In this document: positions 21,469 through 47,113 of the stretch, piece after piece
How positions within the stretch are numbered: position 1 is the stretch's first letter
Layout: the number at the start of each line of letters is the position of its first letter
Assembly (NCBI GenBank): GCA_027490155.1
Contig: JAIXYP010000059.1
Location: 1 to 47,113 of the forward strand
Direction of reading: 5' to 3'
DNA length: 47,113 nucleotides
Source: Cytophagaceae bacterium
GTDB lineage: Bacteria > Bacteroidota > Bacteroidia > Cytophagales > Flexibacteraceae
Translations under genes and position numbers: made by a program
Notes under the pieces: generated by a model
The model's input: only the letters and a program-made list of their open reading frames with translations
Told to the model about the DNA's origin: nothing
Database searches by the model: none

Positions 21469-22494
21469 CTAATTTCTGTTAAATTGACGTCTCAAAAAAT
21501 CTTTGGCTAATTTCTGCTTACCCAAGCTAACATTGTCAGCAACGATTTGGAGATAAGACTCTTGGTCTATACCATACTTTCGAAGATAGCATTTTACATC
21601 ACTTCTAACACTAATCCATTTGAAAATGATTTTTGGCACAGATACCCCATCAATGTTTTTTCTGCCACCTGCAGAAAAAAAATCTCGGACATTTGAACAT
21701 ACAATGCTATGATTTTTTACCAGCCAGGTGCTGAATCTATTGTACTTGCCTTTATCAATTCCTACAGGTGTAAACACTTCAGGAAACAAAACAAATGCTT
21801 CAGCCAGCAGGTCTGATTGCTCCTTCTTTGAAAGCAAATTGAGAATTCGGATTATCGGTGCTTGTAATTCCTCCAACTTTGAGTCCGTGTCAAGCCACCA
21901 AACTTCTTCCCCAGGTTTCAAAATGAATTCCTTATACCTTTTACTAAATTCTTTAACAGGGTTTGGCGAGTTCCTGAGTGAATCATAATCAATATTAATT
22001 TTATCAAAAATAGTATTACCTCTTTCAAGGTTCATATCAATTCGGTACCTAGGTTGATGGGTAACTGCAACATCCATTAGACAGTCTTGGTACAATCTTG
22101 TCTTGAACTCTACACTACCACCAAGTTTACCAAAAAACAAATAGATGTTGTCTATATTTGAACGTCTAGTCGACTCGAGGATGCTATTACCAGTTGTTGT
22201 CCAGTGATTTTGAGTTGTGGTTTTAACCTCTACGCCAAAGAATCGATCAACAGGATATCCAGCAATAATATCTGGAAAATGGTGCCCACTTATTTTTTCA
22301 ATTGATTTAGAAAATACGGTTCCTTTAGCCAAATTATTCATGTTTTCAAATAATAAATCCTCTAGCTTAGTACCTGCATATTGGGCAGCAAAATTACTAG
22401 TCTGCTTACTAAATGCCAGTATTGTCTGCTCTGACTGGAGGAGTAAATGTTCGAAGTCTTGCTGGTAGGGTTTTGGGGTATGGGAAATGATCAT
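21469..22494 (-). CDS. Type II restriction endonuclease (PD-(D/E)XK fold)
   Basis: 341 residues from the ATG at 22494, which is 2 bp after the methyltransferase stop (TAA-TT-ATG), implying translational coupling. An in-frame upstream start would overlap the methyltransferase gene by 25 bp and is less likely. The catalytic core reads HHFPDIIAGYPVDRFFGVEVKTT: Pro74-Asp75, then Glu89-x-Lys91, the classic PD-x(13)-E-x-K arrangement. The remainder is not recognisable to me; the second half (about 180-341) may hold the target-recognition part. Pairing with an m5C methyltransferase makes this the cleaving partner of a type II R-M system. The recognition site cannot be read from sequence. Clearly AT-rich compared with neighbours, suggesting horizontal acquisition. 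Confidence 0.85.
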   Translation of the reverse strand: MIISHTPKPYQQDFEHLLLQSEQTILAFSKQTSNFAAQYAGTKLEDLLFENMNNLAKGTVFSKSIEKISGHHFPDIIAGYPVDRFFGVEVKTTTQNHWTTTGNSILESTRRSNIDNIYLFFGKLGGSVEFKTRLYQDCLMDVAVTHQPRYRIDMNLERGNTIFDKINIDYDSLRNSPNPVKEFSKRYKEFILKPGEEVWWLDTDSKLEELQAPIIRILNLLSKKEQSDLLAEAFVLFPEVFTPVGIDKGKYNRFSTWLVKNHSIVCSNVRDFFSAGGRKNIDGVSVPKIIFKWISVRSDVKCYLRKYGIDQESYLQIVADNVSLGKQKLAKDFLRRQFNRN

Positions 22495-22496
22495 AA

Positions 22497-23828
22497 TTAG
22501 GCTTGAAATAAGTTTGACCAAAGACTTTCAATTTTCATAGCGATTTTATAGGCTAGCAATGGTGGAACTGCATTGCCTATAACTTTGTAGGCTTGCGAAG
22601 AACTAAGCGGCACCAATTTTTCATTAGTACGGGGTGTAACGAATACAAAATCAGGCGGAAATGTTTGGATGAGTGCACATTCTCTTGGCGTTAGACGCCT
22701 TTCGCCCTTTCCTTCATTTAGCTCTGATTGGTATTTACCTTTATGCTCTAAACTAAGCCTTCTGAACTCGATGTTGCCGTGGTGTTCGGCTCGGATTGTT
22801 GGCCCAATACCCGACAATTTTATTTCAGTTTGTCCTTGGCCTTTGGATAAAAATTTTGCTTTAGAATAGACTGCTTGCGATGGGTCAGTTGTTTCCTCAG
22901 GTTCATCTAGCTCGCCCAAAACATCTAGTAGGCAAACTGGTTGTTTTAAATGAGGCTCCTTATGATTGTAGGCATGAGTTATTTCGGGGTATGGATAGTA
23001 TGGAGACTTCTCCCCTAATTGCTCCAATGACTTGATAGCTTCAGGCATTGCCTTTGCCCTATTTATCCCTATAAATATAACTCGTTCTCTTGATTGTGGA
23101 ATACCATAATCAGCAGCATGCAGAACCTTTGCAGGCAGAACCAGATAACCGTCATTATCAATACTTGAAAAATCATTTTCAATAATTTGCTTTACATTTT
23201 CTAAATTCACTAGGCCTTTGACATTTTCTGCTACAAATATCTTAGGTTTAGTGATCGCTATAACTTCTTTCATCCAATAATACAACATACCTCTTGTTTC
23301 CTCAGTTGGTATATCTGCTACTTCAATTTTGCCATAGTGATTTTTGTGTGAATTAAAGCCAGCACGTTTTCCTGCAAGGCTAAAATCTTGGCAAGGAAAT
23401 CCTCCTGTTACTATGTCTATATCATCAGGTAGCATTCCCCCTACAAGCTTGTGCATCTTTACAATATCAACAATGCTGTTTCTGTTAAATGTTTCGGCAT
23501 GTTTACCATATTTTTTGAAGTTATTGGTCCATGCAATTTGTGCTTCTGTAAGGATATCGTTAGAAAATACGGTCTCAAACTTAGTCTCCTTAAGTTTTAA
23601 CCAACTATCTGAAACCCGCCGGTCAATATGATCTGCTTCCATTAGCATATTTATGGAATTCGTGTGGCAAATAAAGCCTCCTTCAAACCCAAGATCCATG
23701 CCACCACATCCAGAGAACAAGGAAAGCAGACGTCTAGTTTTATGATTAGTTGGTAAGGTTTGTACCCTAGATACTGGCTTATAGAGTTCAAACTGAGGCT
23801 CCCTCGCTATATTATCTAAGTTTTCCAT
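22497..23828 (-). CDS. DNA (cytosine-5) methyltransferase of a type II R-M system
   Basis: 443 residues. Motif I is LLSLFSGCGGMDLGFEGG (about 34-51, AdoMet binding). Motif IV is GGFPCQDFSLAGKR with catalytic Cys146, motif VI FVAENVKGL with Glu201, and motif VIII QSRERVIFIGI. The target-recognition region is between about 265 and 385. Motifs IX-X are RRLTPRECALIQTFPPDF and YKVIGNAVPPLLAYKIA. All catalytic motifs are intact. It protects host DNA from the endonuclease encoded 2 bp downstream. Being first in the unit, it would be made before the nuclease. AT-rich like its partner; no controller (C) protein gene is present. Confidence 0.95.
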   Translation of the reverse strand: MENLDNIAREPQFELYKPVSRVQTLPTNHKTRRLLSLFSGCGGMDLGFEGGFICHTNSINMLMEADHIDRRVSDSWLKLKETKFETVFSNDILTEAQIAWTNNFKKYGKHAETFNRNSIVDIVKMHKLVGGMLPDDIDIVTGGFPCQDFSLAGKRAGFNSHKNHYGKIEVADIPTEETRGMLYYWMKEVIAITKPKIFVAENVKGLVNLENVKQIIENDFSSIDNDGYLVLPAKVLHAADYGIPQSRERVIFIGINRAKAMPEAIKSLEQLGEKSPYYPYPEITHAYNHKEPHLKQPVCLLDVLGELDEPEETTDPSQAVYSKAKFLSKGQGQTEIKLSGIGPTIRAEHHGNIEFRRLSLEHKGKYQSELNEGKGERRLTPRECALIQTFPPDFVFVTPRTNEKLVPLSSSQAYKVIGNAVPPLLAYKIAMKIESLWSNLFQA

Positions 23829-34323: not shown

Positions 34324-35784
34324 CTACCGCACCACCACCCGCCCAACAAAAGGCACCTTGCCATCTGCCACAGTGAGGCGGTAGAGGTATAGCCCAGGGG
34401 CAAGGCCCGTAAGGTCTAGGGCTTGGTCTGGCAGGATAGGGGCATCTAGGGCAAGGGAGCCAGCTGTGGTGAACAACCGCAATTGCCCAGGACGATCTAG
34501 GCCGCGGAACTGCACCTGCCCAGAGGTAGGATTAGGGAAGGCAACAGGAGCCACAGATTGCGCCACCTCCCGAGGGCCACCCAGCTCTGTAAGTGGGTCA
34601 AAAGGCCGACCGAAGTTGGCGATTTTGGTTAGGTAAAAGTCCTCTCCTTGATATGGAACCCTTGAACCATCAGCAATGAAACCGCAAATGACGGCACTTT
34701 GATCAGCGTTATACGTAATCCCAGGAAGTAAAATACTATTGTTATTAGGGACAGAAACGACAGGTATTCGCCAAAGTTGTTGTCCTGTACTAGTTACTTT
34801 AGTCATGTAATACGTCCGAGAGGCCGCAGCCACTGAGACATATACTAGGCTACCATCATCCATAATCCTGATCGGAATATCACTGCCATGACCAATTTCC
34901 GAAATAACCCACTCTTGGCTAAAGTCTGGCCGGAGTTTAGCGATGTGAAAGTCTGGTGGTGTTGAGGTGCTTGCCAAAACGCTCGTCTGGGTTAATAGCC
35001 CTCCATCTGGGCAACGCTGGACAAGTGTCAAACTTTGGGTGCCCGCAGTAGGCGGCACAAACAGAACCCTAGTATTCTCAATTACAACACCGTTTGAATC
35101 AACAATCATGCTCACGGTGCGGTTGAGGCTGGAGCCTCCTAGAATAATATTACCACCAGCGTCATTAAAGGCCGCAAAACGTGTCGGGTCGGTGGAGCCT
35201 GGGTTATAAACCTTCAGCCAGTCGAGAAATCCTTGGGGAGTTATGCGGGCAAGAAACCAATCCGTGTTAGTATTAGGGAAAACCTGCCCTGGTACCGAAA
35301 TGCCGTAAACCATTAAGTCACCGTTTTTAGCCTTAAACATACCATACGGTTTGTATGGAAAAAAAGGATTTTGAATGACTCGACTAGTAATGATACTTCC
35401 GGTAGAGTCCACCAATTGAAAAACAAAACCTCCACGATCTGCTTGAACATTAAAATCACTCACTTCAGTTACCACCGCAAGCGTACGGTCATCAACCTTT
35501 ACAACACCTTTTGCATATCCTGCATAACCCAGTGGGCGAACCCATAATAAATTGCCGGACTTACCAAATTTAGCAATATGGCTACCATCAGTCAAAAAGG
35601 TGGAAATACGGACACGATGCAGATAGCCACCACCTACGGCGTAGTATCCATTGGTGTCAAGACTCGTGATTGAAAATAATCGATCATCACTTACTGAGGC
35701 CGACGGTTTCTGAGTCCAAACTACTTGCTGCGCAGGCAGCAAGTAGGGCAACACAAACAACAGGGTGCAGAGTAGTTTGTACAT
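34324..35784 (-). CDS. Secreted T9SS-sorted protein, propeller-like repeats
   Basis: 486 residues. Signal peptide (LLCTLLFVLPYLLPA, cleavage likely before QQV). The body (about 20-400) consists of repeated beta-rich blocks (WTQK, GNLLWVRPLGYAGYAKGVVK, GDLMVYGISVPGQ, GGNIILGGSSLNRT, DGSLVYVSVAA) resembling the daily-life 'G-Y-x-x-x-G' propeller repeats of Bacteroidota surface proteins. The C-terminal ~75 residues are a type A T9SS sorting domain beginning FPNPTSGQVQF and ending RVVVR. The last ~115 residues are nearly identical to those of the partial protein at 46523-47113. Function unknown, probably cell-surface. The gene converges on the thiolase gene and is followed at 6 bp by repeat copy A. 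Confidence 0.87.
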   Translation of the reverse strand: MYKLLCTLLFVLPYLLPAQQVVWTQKPSASVSDDRLFSITSLDTNGYYAVGGGYLHRVRISTFLTDGSHIAKFGKSGNLLWVRPLGYAGYAKGVVKVDDRTLAVVTEVSDFNVQADRGGFVFQLVDSTGSIITSRVIQNPFFPYKPYGMFKAKNGDLMVYGISVPGQVFPNTNTDWFLARITPQGFLDWLKVYNPGSTDPTRFAAFNDAGGNIILGGSSLNRTVSMIVDSNGVVIENTRVLFVPPTAGTQSLTLVQRCPDGGLLTQTSVLASTSTPPDFHIAKLRPDFSQEWVISEIGHGSDIPIRIMDDGSLVYVSVAAASRTYYMTKVTSTGQQLWRIPVVSVPNNNSILLPGITYNADQSAVICGFIADGSRVPYQGEDFYLTKIANFGRPFDPLTELGGPREVAQSVAPVAFPNPTSGQVQFRGLDRPGQLRLFTTAGSLALDAPILPDQALDLTGLAPGLYLYRLTVADGKVPFVGRVVVR

Positions 35785-40891: not shown

Positions 40892-41200
40892 ATGACCACC
40901 GCACGCAAACTATTCATCAACGTTGGCCATGCCGAGTCGGTCAGTTTCCTGCTTTTGCTGTTGGTGGCCATGCCGATCAAGTACTTTTTGGGCAATCCGC
41001 TACCCGTCAAATATGTGGGCTGGGTGCATGGGGCCTTGTTCATGGGCTATGCCTTGGTGTTACTAAACGTGGCCTACCGCGAACGCTGGACCATCTGGAC
41101 CATGGGCCTCGGGATGGCCGCTGCCTTTTTGCCCTTTGGCCCCTACTTATTTGGCCGTTGGTATTGGAACCCGAAACGCACAACAGGCACCCAGTCCTAG
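40892..41200 (+). CDS. DUF3817-family small membrane protein
   Basis: 102 residues with about three membrane spans (ESVSFLLLLLVAMPIKYFLG, VHGALFMGYALVLLNVAY and MGLGMAAAFLPFGPYLFG). The conserved family features are the N-terminal R-x-x-F-x-x-V-G-x-x-E-S-x-S-F, the central K-Y-V-G-W-V-H-G and the C-terminal P-F-G-P-Y. Integral inner-membrane protein of unknown function, found singly in many bacteria. It is the only plus-strand gene between 34.1 kb and the right edge. Confidence 0.9.
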   Translation: MTTARKLFINVGHAESVSFLLLLLVAMPIKYFLGNPLPVKYVGWVHGALFMGYALVLLNVAYRERWTIWTMGLGMAAAFLPFGPYLFGRWYWNPKRTTGTQS

Positions 41201-41215
41201 GACTAAGTGCCTGTT
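41182..41215 (+). other. Inverted repeat at the end of the DUF3817 gene
   Basis: AACAGGCAC (41182-41190) and GTGCCTGTT (41207-41215) form a 9-bp stem that includes the stop codon in its loop; TCC-TA-GGA inside the loop can extend it. No T-run follows, so it may be a Rho-type or RNA-stabilising 3' structure rather than an intrinsic terminator. Confidence 0.45.
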
Positions 41216-41272
41216 AGAGGTGTTGTAAGCTGGTTTAGCTAGGCCTTAATTGCCTAGGTTGTGACAACCACG

Positions 41273-41662
41273 CTACCCCACAACCCGCCAAACAGGTTTC
41301 TTGGTAGCACCTTCGCGCACTACCCTTCCTTCAGCCTTTAGGATATCGAGGTGGTAGCGCACACCTTGGTCAGTCAGTCCCAGCAATACGGCCATGTCTT
41401 TGACTTTCAGGTTATGGTCCTGCTTGAGGGCATTCAATATCCGCTCCTTGACTGGCAAGGTGATTTCTTTGCTAGTCAGCCCTATTTCTTTACTAGTACC
41501 AGCCCCTTTGGTAGGGGTTTCTTTACTAGTCAGCCCTGTTTCTTTACTAGTTAGCTCCGTTTCTTTACTAGTACCGATCCCTTTGGTAGGGGTTTCTTTA
41601 CTAGTCAGCCCTATTTCTTTACTAGTACCAGCCCCTTTGGTAGGGGTTTCTTTACTAGTCAA
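41273..41662 (-). CDS. Orphan winged-helix protein with N-terminal TSKE repeats
   Basis: 129 residues from a TTG at 41662, the only usable start codon; the frame is open a further 51 bp to a TGA and encodes two more repeat units, so the start is uncertain. Residues 1-67 are tandem units TSKE-x-P-T-K-G-x-G (11 residues) and TSKE-x-x-L (7 residues). Residues ~68-129 are a winged helix (PVKERILNALKQDHNLKVKDMAVLLGLTDQGVRYHLDILKAEG, then a wing VVREGATKKPVWRVV). Similar wHTH tails after short tandem linkers occur at the end of AlbA_2/COG2865-type ATP-binding regulators in this phylum; here the catalytic part is absent. It could be a stand-alone DNA-binding protein or a stranded C-terminal fragment. 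It lies 91 bp after purD on the same strand. Confidence 0.6.
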   Translation of the reverse strand: MTSKETPTKGAGTSKEIGLTSKETPTKGIGTSKETELTSKETGLTSKETPTKGAGTSKEIGLTSKEITLPVKERILNALKQDHNLKVKDMAVLLGLTDQGVRYHLDILKAEGRVVREGATKKPVWRVVG

Positions 41663-41713
41663 CCCTATTTCTTTACTAGTACCAGCCCCCTTGGTAGGGG
41701 TTTCTTTACTAGT
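41464..41713 (-). repeat. Tandem repeat: ten TSKE-coding units alternating 21 and 33 bp
   Basis: Ten copies of TTTCTTTACTAGT (plus strand; one has GCTAGT) start at 41464, 41485, 41518, 41539, 41560, 41593, 41614, 41647, 41668 and 41701. Spacings are 21, 33, 21, 21, 33, 21, 33, 21 and 33 bp, all multiples of three, so copy-number change keeps the reading frame. Nine copies contain ACTAGT. The repeats encode the N-terminus of the winged-helix protein and two further units upstream of its TTG. Confidence 0.95.
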
Positions 41714-41753
41714 CTCTAATAATCACTTCTAGATTAGTAAATTACTTTCAGAC

Positions 41754-43082
41754 TCACACCACCCCAATATCGGACCGGTAATACCGCCCCTCCCAAGTGA
41801 TGGCAGCGGTGGCACTTTGGGCCAAGGCGATGGTCTCGGGCCAGGTGGTGGCTGTGGCAGAAACGGCCATGACACGCCCACCAGAGGTAACAAGTTTGCC
41901 ATCGGCCTCTAGGGCGGTGCCAGCATGGAAGACCTCGATGTCTGGATTGCCAAGGTGGGTTTCATGCCCCGAAATCGGCAGGCCCTTTTCGAAGGTGCCG
42001 GGGTAGCCACCACTGGCCAAAACGACGGTGCAAACTGGTTGATTGGTTGTGCAGAGGCTTCGGCCTTCCCATGTCGAAAGCTCACCATTTGCGGCGGCAA
42101 CAAAGGCATCAGCGAGGTCGGGGCCTAGGCGCATCATCAGCGATTGCGTTTCGGGATCACCCAGCCGGCAATTGTACTCGATCACGTAGGGTTTGCCATC
42201 CACCACCATCAGGCCGATAAACAAGAAGCCTACATAGTGCAGTCCTTCTTGCTCAAGTCCAGCCAAAGTTGGGCGGACGATAGTTGCATCGACAGCGGCC
42301 AACATGGCCTCATCAGCAAACGGAACGGGCGAAATTGTACCCATGCCACCCGTGTTAAGACCTGTATCACCTACGCCAATGCGCTTGTAGTCCTTGGCTT
42401 GCGGTAGGGTAAGGTAGTGGCCTGTACCATCCGCCAAGACGAAATAGGAGAGCTCCTTGCCATCCAAAAATTGTTCGATAACAATACGCTCGCCAGCAGC
42501 ACCAAAGGCCTCACCTGACAGCATTTCGGTAACCGCCTCTGTGGCCTCTTGGTATGATTGCGCAATGATGACCCCCTTGCCAGCTGCCAGCCCATCTGCC
42601 TTAATGACAATTGGCAGCGGTTGGGTCTGGATGTAGGCAAGACAGGCGGCTAGGTCAGCTTGTGTAAACTCCTGATAGGCAGCTGTCGGGATGTTGTGGC
42701 GGGCCATAAAAGCCTTGCTAAAGGCTTTACTCCCCTCTAGCTGGGCACAGTCCTTGTTCGGACCTAGGACCTTAACACCGGCTAGGTCAGCACGGAGGGC
42801 AAAGTAGTCGGCAATACCATCTACTAGGGGCTGCTCTGGCCCAACGACAACGACATCGATGCCTTGATCTAGGCAAAATTGAGCAATGGCCTGAAAGTCA
42901 TTAAGCGGAATCGGAGCGCAGGTGACGATCTTGGCAATGCCCGGATTACCTGGTGCGGCATAGACTGCATGCTGGCGTCGTTGCCCCTCACTATGGTCAG
43001 GCTGGGAGAGTCGCCAACAAAGTGCATGTTCACGTCCGCCACTGCCCAGTACCAAAAACCGATGATTCCCTAAAGTCTGCAT
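41754..43082 (-). CDS. purD: Phosphoribosylamine-glycine ligase (GAR synthetase)
   Basis: 442 residues, slightly longer than average. Catalyses ATP-dependent joining of glycine to phosphoribosylamine in purine synthesis. N-terminal FLVLGSGGREHALCWRL, the ATP-grasp region with AFSKAFMARHNIPTAAY, IKADGLAAGKGVIIA, EQFLDGKELSYF and GLNTGGMGTISPVPF, and the metal site YVIEYNCRLGDPETQ. C-terminal domain TVVLASGGYPG.... All family blocks are intact. It follows the quinone-reductase-like gene by 36 bp and may be co-transcribed; no other pur genes are nearby. Confidence 0.97.
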   Translation of the reverse strand: MQTLGNHRFLVLGSGGREHALCWRLSQPDHSEGQRRQHAVYAAPGNPGIAKIVTCAPIPLNDFQAIAQFCLDQGIDVVVVGPEQPLVDGIADYFALRADLAGVKVLGPNKDCAQLEGSKAFSKAFMARHNIPTAAYQEFTQADLAACLAYIQTQPLPIVIKADGLAAGKGVIIAQSYQEATEAVTEMLSGEAFGAAGERIVIEQFLDGKELSYFVLADGTGHYLTLPQAKDYKRIGVGDTGLNTGGMGTISPVPFADEAMLAAVDATIVRPTLAGLEQEGLHYVGFLFIGLMVVDGKPYVIEYNCRLGDPETQSLMMRLGPDLADAFVAAANGELSTWEGRSLCTTNQPVCTVVLASGGYPGTFEKGLPISGHETHLGNPDIEVFHAGTALEADGKLVTSGGRVMAVSATATTWPETIALAQSATAAITWEGRYYRSDIGVV

Positions 43083-46522: not shown

Positions 46523-47113
46523 CTACCGCACCACCACCCGCCCAACAAAAGGCACCTTGCCATCTGCCACCGTGAGGCGATAGAGGTAAAGCCCAGGCGC
46601 CAACCCAGTAAGGTCTAGGGCTTGGGCTGGTAGGATGGGGGCATCTAGGGCGAGGGAGCCAGCCGTTGTGAATAACCGTAATTGCCCGGGGCGATCTAAA
46701 CCACGGAACTGCACCTGCCCCGAAGTAGGATTAGGGAAGGCCAAAGGGGCTACAGATTGCGCCACCTCCCGAGGACCACCCAGCTCTGTTAGTGGGTCAA
46801 AAGGCCGTCCGAAGTTGGCGATTTTGGTAAAGTAAAAATTCTGGCCGGTATAAGGCACTTGATAACCATCATCAATGAAACCACACAGAACGGCACTTTG
46901 GTCTGGGTTGTAGGTGATACCATTGAGGTATAGTTCATTACTACTAGGCAAGGCTACCACTAAAATCCGCCAGAGACGTTGACCATTTGCATTAACTTTG
47001 GTCATGTAAAAATCAACACTATTGCGTGCCTTCGAAGTATATATTACACTACCATCATCCATAATCCTGCATGGTATGCTGGAGCCAGATCCAATCTCCG
47101 ATATTAACCATTC
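46523..47113 (-). CDS. T9SS-sorted secreted protein, paralogue of 34324-35784 (5' end beyond window)
   Basis: The minus frame is open from the stop at 46523 to the right edge (196 residues seen; the N-terminus is missing). The upstream part (EWLISEIG, RIMDDGSVIYTSKARN, YMTKVNANGQRLWRI) aligns with the body of the 34324-35784 protein at perhaps 55-60% identity. From KIANFGRPFDPLTELGG to the end it matches with only two substitutions, including the sorting domain FPNPTSGQVQF...RVVVR. It is a surface or secreted protein of the same family, function unknown. Followed at 12 bp by repeat copy C. Confidence 0.88.
   Translation of the reverse strand, partial: EWLISEIGSGSSIPCRIMDDGSVIYTSKARNSVDFYMTKVNANGQRLWRILVVALPSSNELYLNGITYNPDQSAVLCGFIDDGYQVPYTGQNFYFTKIANFGRPFDPLTELGGPREVAQSVAPLAFPNPTSGQVQFRGLDRPGQLRLFTTAGSLALDAPILPAQALDLTGLAPGLYLYRLTVADGKVPFVGRVVVR

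Follow-up and report, generated by a model that had tools for sequence, protein, structure and literature searches.

A repeat-linked winged-helix frame behind purD is probably the stranded tail of an AlbA_2-type regulator

The window analysed here, a stretch of 47,113 nucleotides from a Cytophagaceae bacterium (contig JAIXYP010000059.1 of assembly GCA_027490155.1), contains on its minus strand an open frame that joins a tandem TSKE repeat to a winged helix-turn-helix (wHTH) domain. We consider it likely that this frame is the C-terminal tail of an AlbA_2-HATPase_c_4 regulator, stranded without its body and probably a pseudogene. The closest such regulator found is L005, a 509-residue protein of a relative in the same family. 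Neither the domain in the tail nor the protein it derives from is of a new kind; the tail stands here without the defining features of its parent family, in what looks like ordinary genome decay. Four observations carry this view: the homology of the tail, the common 7/11-residue spacing of the repeats, the absence of the body, and deletions of Fic bodies up to such an array elsewhere. The features concerned are the following.

41273..41722, minus strand: 149-codon open frame between a TGA and a TAG; 129 aa with TTG 41662 as start
41465..41713, minus strand: ten-unit TSKE array, with units of 33 or 21 bp and two super-units of 54 bp that are identical (54/54)
41276..41470, minus strand: wHTH, three helices and two strands (Pfam HTH_24, AlphaFold, 52-55% identity to the tail of L005 = L042)
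41754..43082, minus strand: upstream neighbour, which we take to be purD; strong matches in 7 of 10 related genomes at 35-53% identity
41714..41753, minus strand: 40-base gap from the purD stop to the first repeat unit, the putative site of the lost N-terminal part
40892..41200, plus strand: converging downstream neighbour, a 102-aa protein with matches in 3 of 5 related genomes

The frame is preceded by a TGA (41725-41723), has its first base at 41722 and stops at a TAG (41275-41273). Its N-terminus reads LLE and is followed by ten TSKE units starting at residues 4, 15, 22, 33, 40, 51, 58, 65, 76 and 83. The intervals are 11, 7, 11, 7, 11, 7, 7, 11, 7 and 7 residues (33 or 21 bp), the last one measured to a degenerate PVKE. 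Nine units encode the first two residues with ACTAGT and the tenth with ACTAGC. An initial annotation of this DNA had given the same figures for the units and their ACTAGT codons; the strict alternation of 21- and 33-bp units that it described applies to most of the array and is interrupted where two 7-residue intervals occur in a row, which happens twice. The array is the only source of the three rows that Tandem Repeats Finder returned for the whole window (periods 21, 54 and 75; best score 291), and it is therefore not due to chance. Two of the four 54-bp super-units (11+7 residues) compared within it are identical.

We confirm that the frame extends 5′ of TTG 41662, the codon that ends unit 2, over two more units to the TGA. 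This TTG is the first in-frame ATG, GTG or TTG and not the sole start that had been claimed, as TTG 41458, TTG 41437 and ATG 41395 lie further in; a start at TTG 41458 would yield the wHTH alone. No ATG occurs 5′ of the wHTH. The openness of the array is weak evidence for coding because two of its six frames lack stops, one on each strand (the plus-strand ORF is 41394-41732), and the putative coding strand, minus, is chosen by homology. Codon usage in the array is not host-like (score -0.077, GC3 0.31). In the AlphaFold model the residues up to 83 have no secondary structure, and block means of pLDDT over residues 1-80 are 40-52. Each of the four 33-bp units (41490-41710) contains a hairpin of the type CCCCTACCAAAGGGG, with a base altered in two of them. 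By eye, we also noticed a 13-base palindrome, GGTTGTGACAACC, at 41257-41269 directly behind the wHTH stop; it overlaps ATTGCCTAGGTTG (41249-41261), which is found again near the relic on contig C41 described below.

The last repeat runs into helix 1 of the wHTH. The domain scores 23.9 bits against HTH_24 (PF13412), above the curated cut-off of 21.9, and AlphaFold predicts helices at 84-101, 107-114 and 118-131 and strands at 134-138 and 143-147; in this model, built from a four-sequence alignment, block means are 85-93 over residues 91-149 (whole-model mean 63). The winged helix announced in the initial annotation is thus genuine on both grounds, and Pfam finds no catalytic domain in the frame, as had also been noted. 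The domain carries all near-invariant residues of our wHTH alignment (A2), in which the window is itself one row; a profile search hit at E 4e-26 is likewise not independent, the window being a row of that profile. In contrast to the array, the wHTH resembles host genes in its codons (score 0.053, with 28% of 152 gene pieces lower), a score reached by 7 of 2000 random-codon recodings of the same peptide.

In a structure comparison the best match of the wHTH model was the Z-alpha domain of PKZ (4kmf, Z 11.1, rmsd 1.2, 62 aligned), tied in Z by ordinary bacterial wHTHs (1ylf, 10.6; 5jls, 10.2), and a profile match to Z-alpha (2rvc) spans positions 3-59 of 60 at E 2.9e-5. Z-alpha domains, such as those of PKZ and ADAR1, contact Z-nucleic acid through an Asn and a Tyr of the recognition helix and a Trp of the wing. 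The window domain shares the wHTH fold and the wing Trp, but the profile alignment places Arg and Asp at the positions of the Asn and Tyr. On these contact residues we reject a Z-DNA-binding reading, and the likeness to Z-alpha is one of fold.

The nearest relative was found in a search of 98 related genomes, where genome G005 of the same family gave a match at E 8e-17 in a 517-residue open frame. This is L005; the same locus (L042) was among the three found in a genome-contig scan. Pfam assigns to it AlbA_2 (4-110), HATPase_c_4 (281-367) and HTH_24 (448-493). Its residues 377-506, array and wHTH, align to window positions 41668-41279 with 45% identity (E 4e-24), while its other matches in the window are at chance level (E 0.37 at 10.8-11.0 kb and E 0.87 at 40.6-40.7 kb). 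The alignment covers the wHTH and window units 3-10. Units 1 and 2, which lie ahead of it, are of the same kind, and since the match starts at unit 3 the breakpoint cannot be placed exactly.

Both arrays have intervals of 7 and 11 residues. From unit 3 of the window the order of intervals is the same in 6 of 8, and both stretches measure 68 residues. The commonest unit is ACTAGTARAGAA in both, with differing letters in between; each array has an exact 54-bp duplication; and the last TSKE/TSRE is encoded with ACTAGC in both, but these two units are not aligned together and the likeness is given no weight. From these two sequences we infer that the arrays are homologous, with the period kept while the units turned over separately. 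Comparison of codons shows third positions 73% different against 37% and 25% for the first two, with dN 0.43 and dS not estimable; this divergence may mostly predate the truncation. The AlphaFold model of the full-length relative has a mean pLDDT of 48, too low to support any claim. L005 also matches Argonaute-linked and CARF/Csa3 models of PADLOC, which by position reflects shared domains.

Proteins with AlbA_2 (PF04326), HATPase_c_4 (PF13749) and a wHTH are presumably COG2865-type regulators, and a link to regulators of this type with a repeat linker and a terminal wHTH had been suggested in the initial annotation. Pfam supports it: AlbA_2, HATPase_c_4 and HTH_24 are present in all five proteins on which it was run for this purpose (L005, L007, L043, L044 and L069). 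The window frame has the C-terminal wHTH of this family and also the tandem-repeat linker ahead of it, a feature that is common and not universal in the family (it is not evident in L053). Neither AlbA_2 nor HATPase_c_4 is found in the frame, and neither PF04326 nor PF13749 has a place on its contig. Among 27 frames that were read (L048 repeating L006), seven are other proteins, by eye DeoR-like (L008-L010, L057-L059) or sigma-like (L014), one is the C41 relic, and the remainder are AlbA_2-type, full or partial, by reading or by matches to L005 or L007. Most of the AlbA_2-type frames have short repeats ahead of the wHTH, such as TSRE, TTQK, TSTK, VEET, GGAK and others.

In a phylum-wide sample with up to 16 candidates per genome scored, in which family f37 dominates, at least 110 places in 64 of 395 genomes matched at E 1e-8 or better. 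Among the matches listed, the frames are of at least 430 aa in 50 cases, 300-429 aa in 15, 120-299 aa in 24, the class of the window, and below 120 aa in 21; 65 of the 110 places thus lie in frames of at least 300 aa, frame lengths and not domains being counted. With the window protein as query, the plasmids searched gave no match and the phages a single weak one (35% over query residues 73-128, E 0.004). With L005 as query, 79 plasmid records matched, none with 80% of the query at one place; the five of these that were fetched were without three consecutive T[S/T][K/R]E units, a pattern that would miss the L072 array described below too. In viral contigs, 72 pattern matches were obtained and none was confirmed. 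A narrow open-access literature search found nothing on this tail, which is no proof of its absence from print; the available part of PMC11621453 does not contain 'winged', 'Schlafen', 'HATPase' or 'COG2865'.

We have looked for the missing body in the genome itself (G000). AlbA_2 occurs at four places (one on C56, two on C3, one on C39), none of them on the window contig, and the tails of these four proteins are of other kinds. HATPase_c_4 exceeds its cut-off on C3 and C39, scores far below it on C68 and is absent from the window contig. A search with L005 gave the window tail, the C41 relic and weak matches to two AlbA_2 paralogues, and no further body of its type. Searched in the other direction, full-length proteins of the AlbA_2, DUF4062 and Fic types matched the window in its tail region alone, at E 0.01. 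The genome has no further copy of the array, the second-best match of 41200-41760 being 22 bases at E 0.56.

A second tail-like locus lies on C41 (267298-267417; L003 1501-1620, L103). This relic consists of part of a similar wHTH in short frames with a stop, behind what by eye is a vWA-type gene, and the 10 kb around it contain no body. It sits between flanks that are 88-94% identical in G001, the genome of a second species of the genus, and its small lesions differ between the two. The counterpart there is at C111 6521-6601 (L011); the last 100 bp or so align well and the sequence just upstream does not.

At the locus itself the tail stands alone beside purD, as had been described: the first unit begins 40 bases behind the purD stop and no body is found. 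The 40-base gap has no similarity to the AlbA_2, HATPase and Fic panel. Compared with G005, the purD protein of the window is four residues shorter after a common DIG (two of the seven relatives were compared), and this early end hints at a possible breakpoint there. Seven relatives have a clear purD; in the two of them whose surroundings were read, G003 and G005, no such tail gene follows it, and no second genome with the tail locus was found among the related genomes searched. A search of G001 for the two neighbours gave neither of them with comparable similarity, hence no empty site could be read. Elsewhere in the window, two predicted proteins (34324-35784 and 46523-47113, minus strand) share near-identical C-terminal stretches of ~100 residues that by eye are secretion sorting domain-like, and at 21469-23828 (minus strand) a gene judged by eye to be DNA cytosine methyltransferase-like overlaps the gene after it, possibly its restriction partner.

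Other short and broken tail loci provide a view of how such frames arise. Besides the window, nine places with frames below 300 aa were fetched of the 44 listed, and eight of the nine retain some piece of an AlbA_2/HATPase or Fic gene. L080 and L084 have AlbA_2-type body pieces upstream in another frame, the end of such a body remains in L089, and that of a Fic body in L073, L076 and L085. Outside these nine, L060 and L051 are broken or truncated AlbA_2-type genes too. In L079 (1411-1680, reverse-complement) an internal deletion brings Fic residues 48-74 within 4 bases of residues 296-357, and in L092 (1373-1674, reverse-complement) residues 290-357 come after sequence resembling that before the start (residues 8-32, the Fic start being 38). 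In the Fic protein the repeats begin at about residue 290, so that in these two loci, both of genus g179, deletions of the Fic body end at the repeat array. The upstream pieces of L079 and L092 had at first been read as bodies of their own, a reading overturned by the internal deletions. A different arrangement is found in G530, where a tail-only wHTH frame (L081/L100; L100 2763-2966), with a frame break in its repeats, lies between genes with HsdM and HsdS domains. The initial annotation had named homologues always fused to an N-terminal domain visibly deleted here as evidence against its idea, and this is largely what is seen: the nearest homologue found is fused and its body is absent from the window. 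The fusion is not strict, L100/L081 and the decayed C41 relic being tail-only, and no remnant of a body is visible in the window.

We propose that about 375 N-terminal residues of an L005-type parent were lost through a deletion or rearrangement with its endpoint at or inside the 5′ end of the array. The array is a likely break point because of its near-identical 54-bp units and the Fic cases of L079 and L092. The remnant, lacking an ATG ahead of the wHTH, would be non-functional, and any translation would start from TTG on read-through from purD. In the intact proteins the disordered, flexible linker would tether the DNA-binding wHTH to the AlbA_2/ATPase body, and slippage of the repeats would therefore alter the length of the tether only. 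Since no remnant of the body is visible, its deletion can only be inferred. Against a relic stand the intact 149-codon frame, the conserved wHTH core and the host-like wHTH codons. Judged by sequence comparison, the intact frame, the conserved core, the wHTH codons and the third-position divergence would fit a recent truncation and the retention of a small protein alike.

Between the two readings left by the initial annotation, a stranded fragment or a small protein, we thus favour the fragment, and consider it unlikely that the frame encodes a small DNA-binding protein kept after the body was lost, in which the wHTH would work alone with a flexible arm rich in Lys and Thr, perhaps competing at the sites of its former parent. 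Such a protein would account for the intact frame, the conserved core with its confident AlphaFold fold and host-like codons, and the decay of the C41 copy but not of this one. The excess of third-position differences (73% vs 37% and 25%; dN 0.43) would also be expected, but may mostly predate the truncation. However, no ATG precedes the wHTH and the first start is the TTG ending unit 2; the two relatives read have no such gene behind purD; and in L100, the only clear parallel without a body, the repeats are interrupted by a frame break. Sigma-70-type promoter matches number 0 vs 0.3 expected, a weak point as other promoter types lay outside the test.

A broader version appears less probable still. 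The repeat-wHTH tail would be a portable module of AlbA_2, DUF4062 and Fic proteins, with the array as a preferred break point up to which their bodies are repeatedly deleted (in the window, L079, L092 and perhaps C41 and L100), and the tail freed in the window would persist as a DNA-binding protein of variable length, perhaps competing for the target sites of the parent it came from. It is very improbable that the locus is an assembly artefact, the array having caused a wrong join in a genome that truly has a full-length gene: the assembly is a draft of 69 contigs and the identical 54-bp units could mislead it, but it contains no orphan body of the L005 type, and 41200-41760 has no second match in it apart from the 22 bases at E 0.56. 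Least probable of all is that the array acts as DNA or RNA, as hairpins or a terminator-like element between the converging genes, with an incidental open frame. In favour of this, the plus strand has ten terminator-like matches vs 1.1 expected (eight of them from the hairpins of the 33-bp units), and the folding z of the minus-strand RNA is -2.56, a value that 2 of 200 shuffles attain. Against it, L005 has an array of equal spacing that lacks that hairpin sequence and is part of a 509-residue coding frame, and Rfam yields just a pair of matches (E 0.43 and 0.44), which fall far short of their gathering scores.

If the frame is a stranded tail, as we prefer, it illustrates how the site of a break that strands a DNA-binding tail can be marked by a repeat linker, and some caution is advisable with small 'orphan regulators' beside repeats, which may be remnants of genes. 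The 7/11-residue array in two genera also provides a small, checkable case of a linker period that is kept while its units turn over.

Compared with known proteins, the window frame shares with L005 the 7/11-spaced linker and a wHTH that is 52-55% identical, but lacks the AlbA_2 and HATPase_c_4 domains. Tails of repeat and wHTH are also carried by Fic bodies (L088, L085, L077) and by a DUF4062+HATPase_c_4 body (L072), L088 and L072 being assigned by Pfam and L077 and L085 by similarity. The L072 protein (G595; DUF4062, HATPase_c_4 and wHTH) has a 7-residue T-G/S-R/L-E array and is 38% identical over 116 aa, its N-terminal domains again being absent from the window. L088 has, like the window, a short repeat followed by a wHTH found with the same profile, but on a Fic body and with just 25% identity over 55 aa. 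Across these different bodies the repeat-wHTH tail looks like an exchangeable module.
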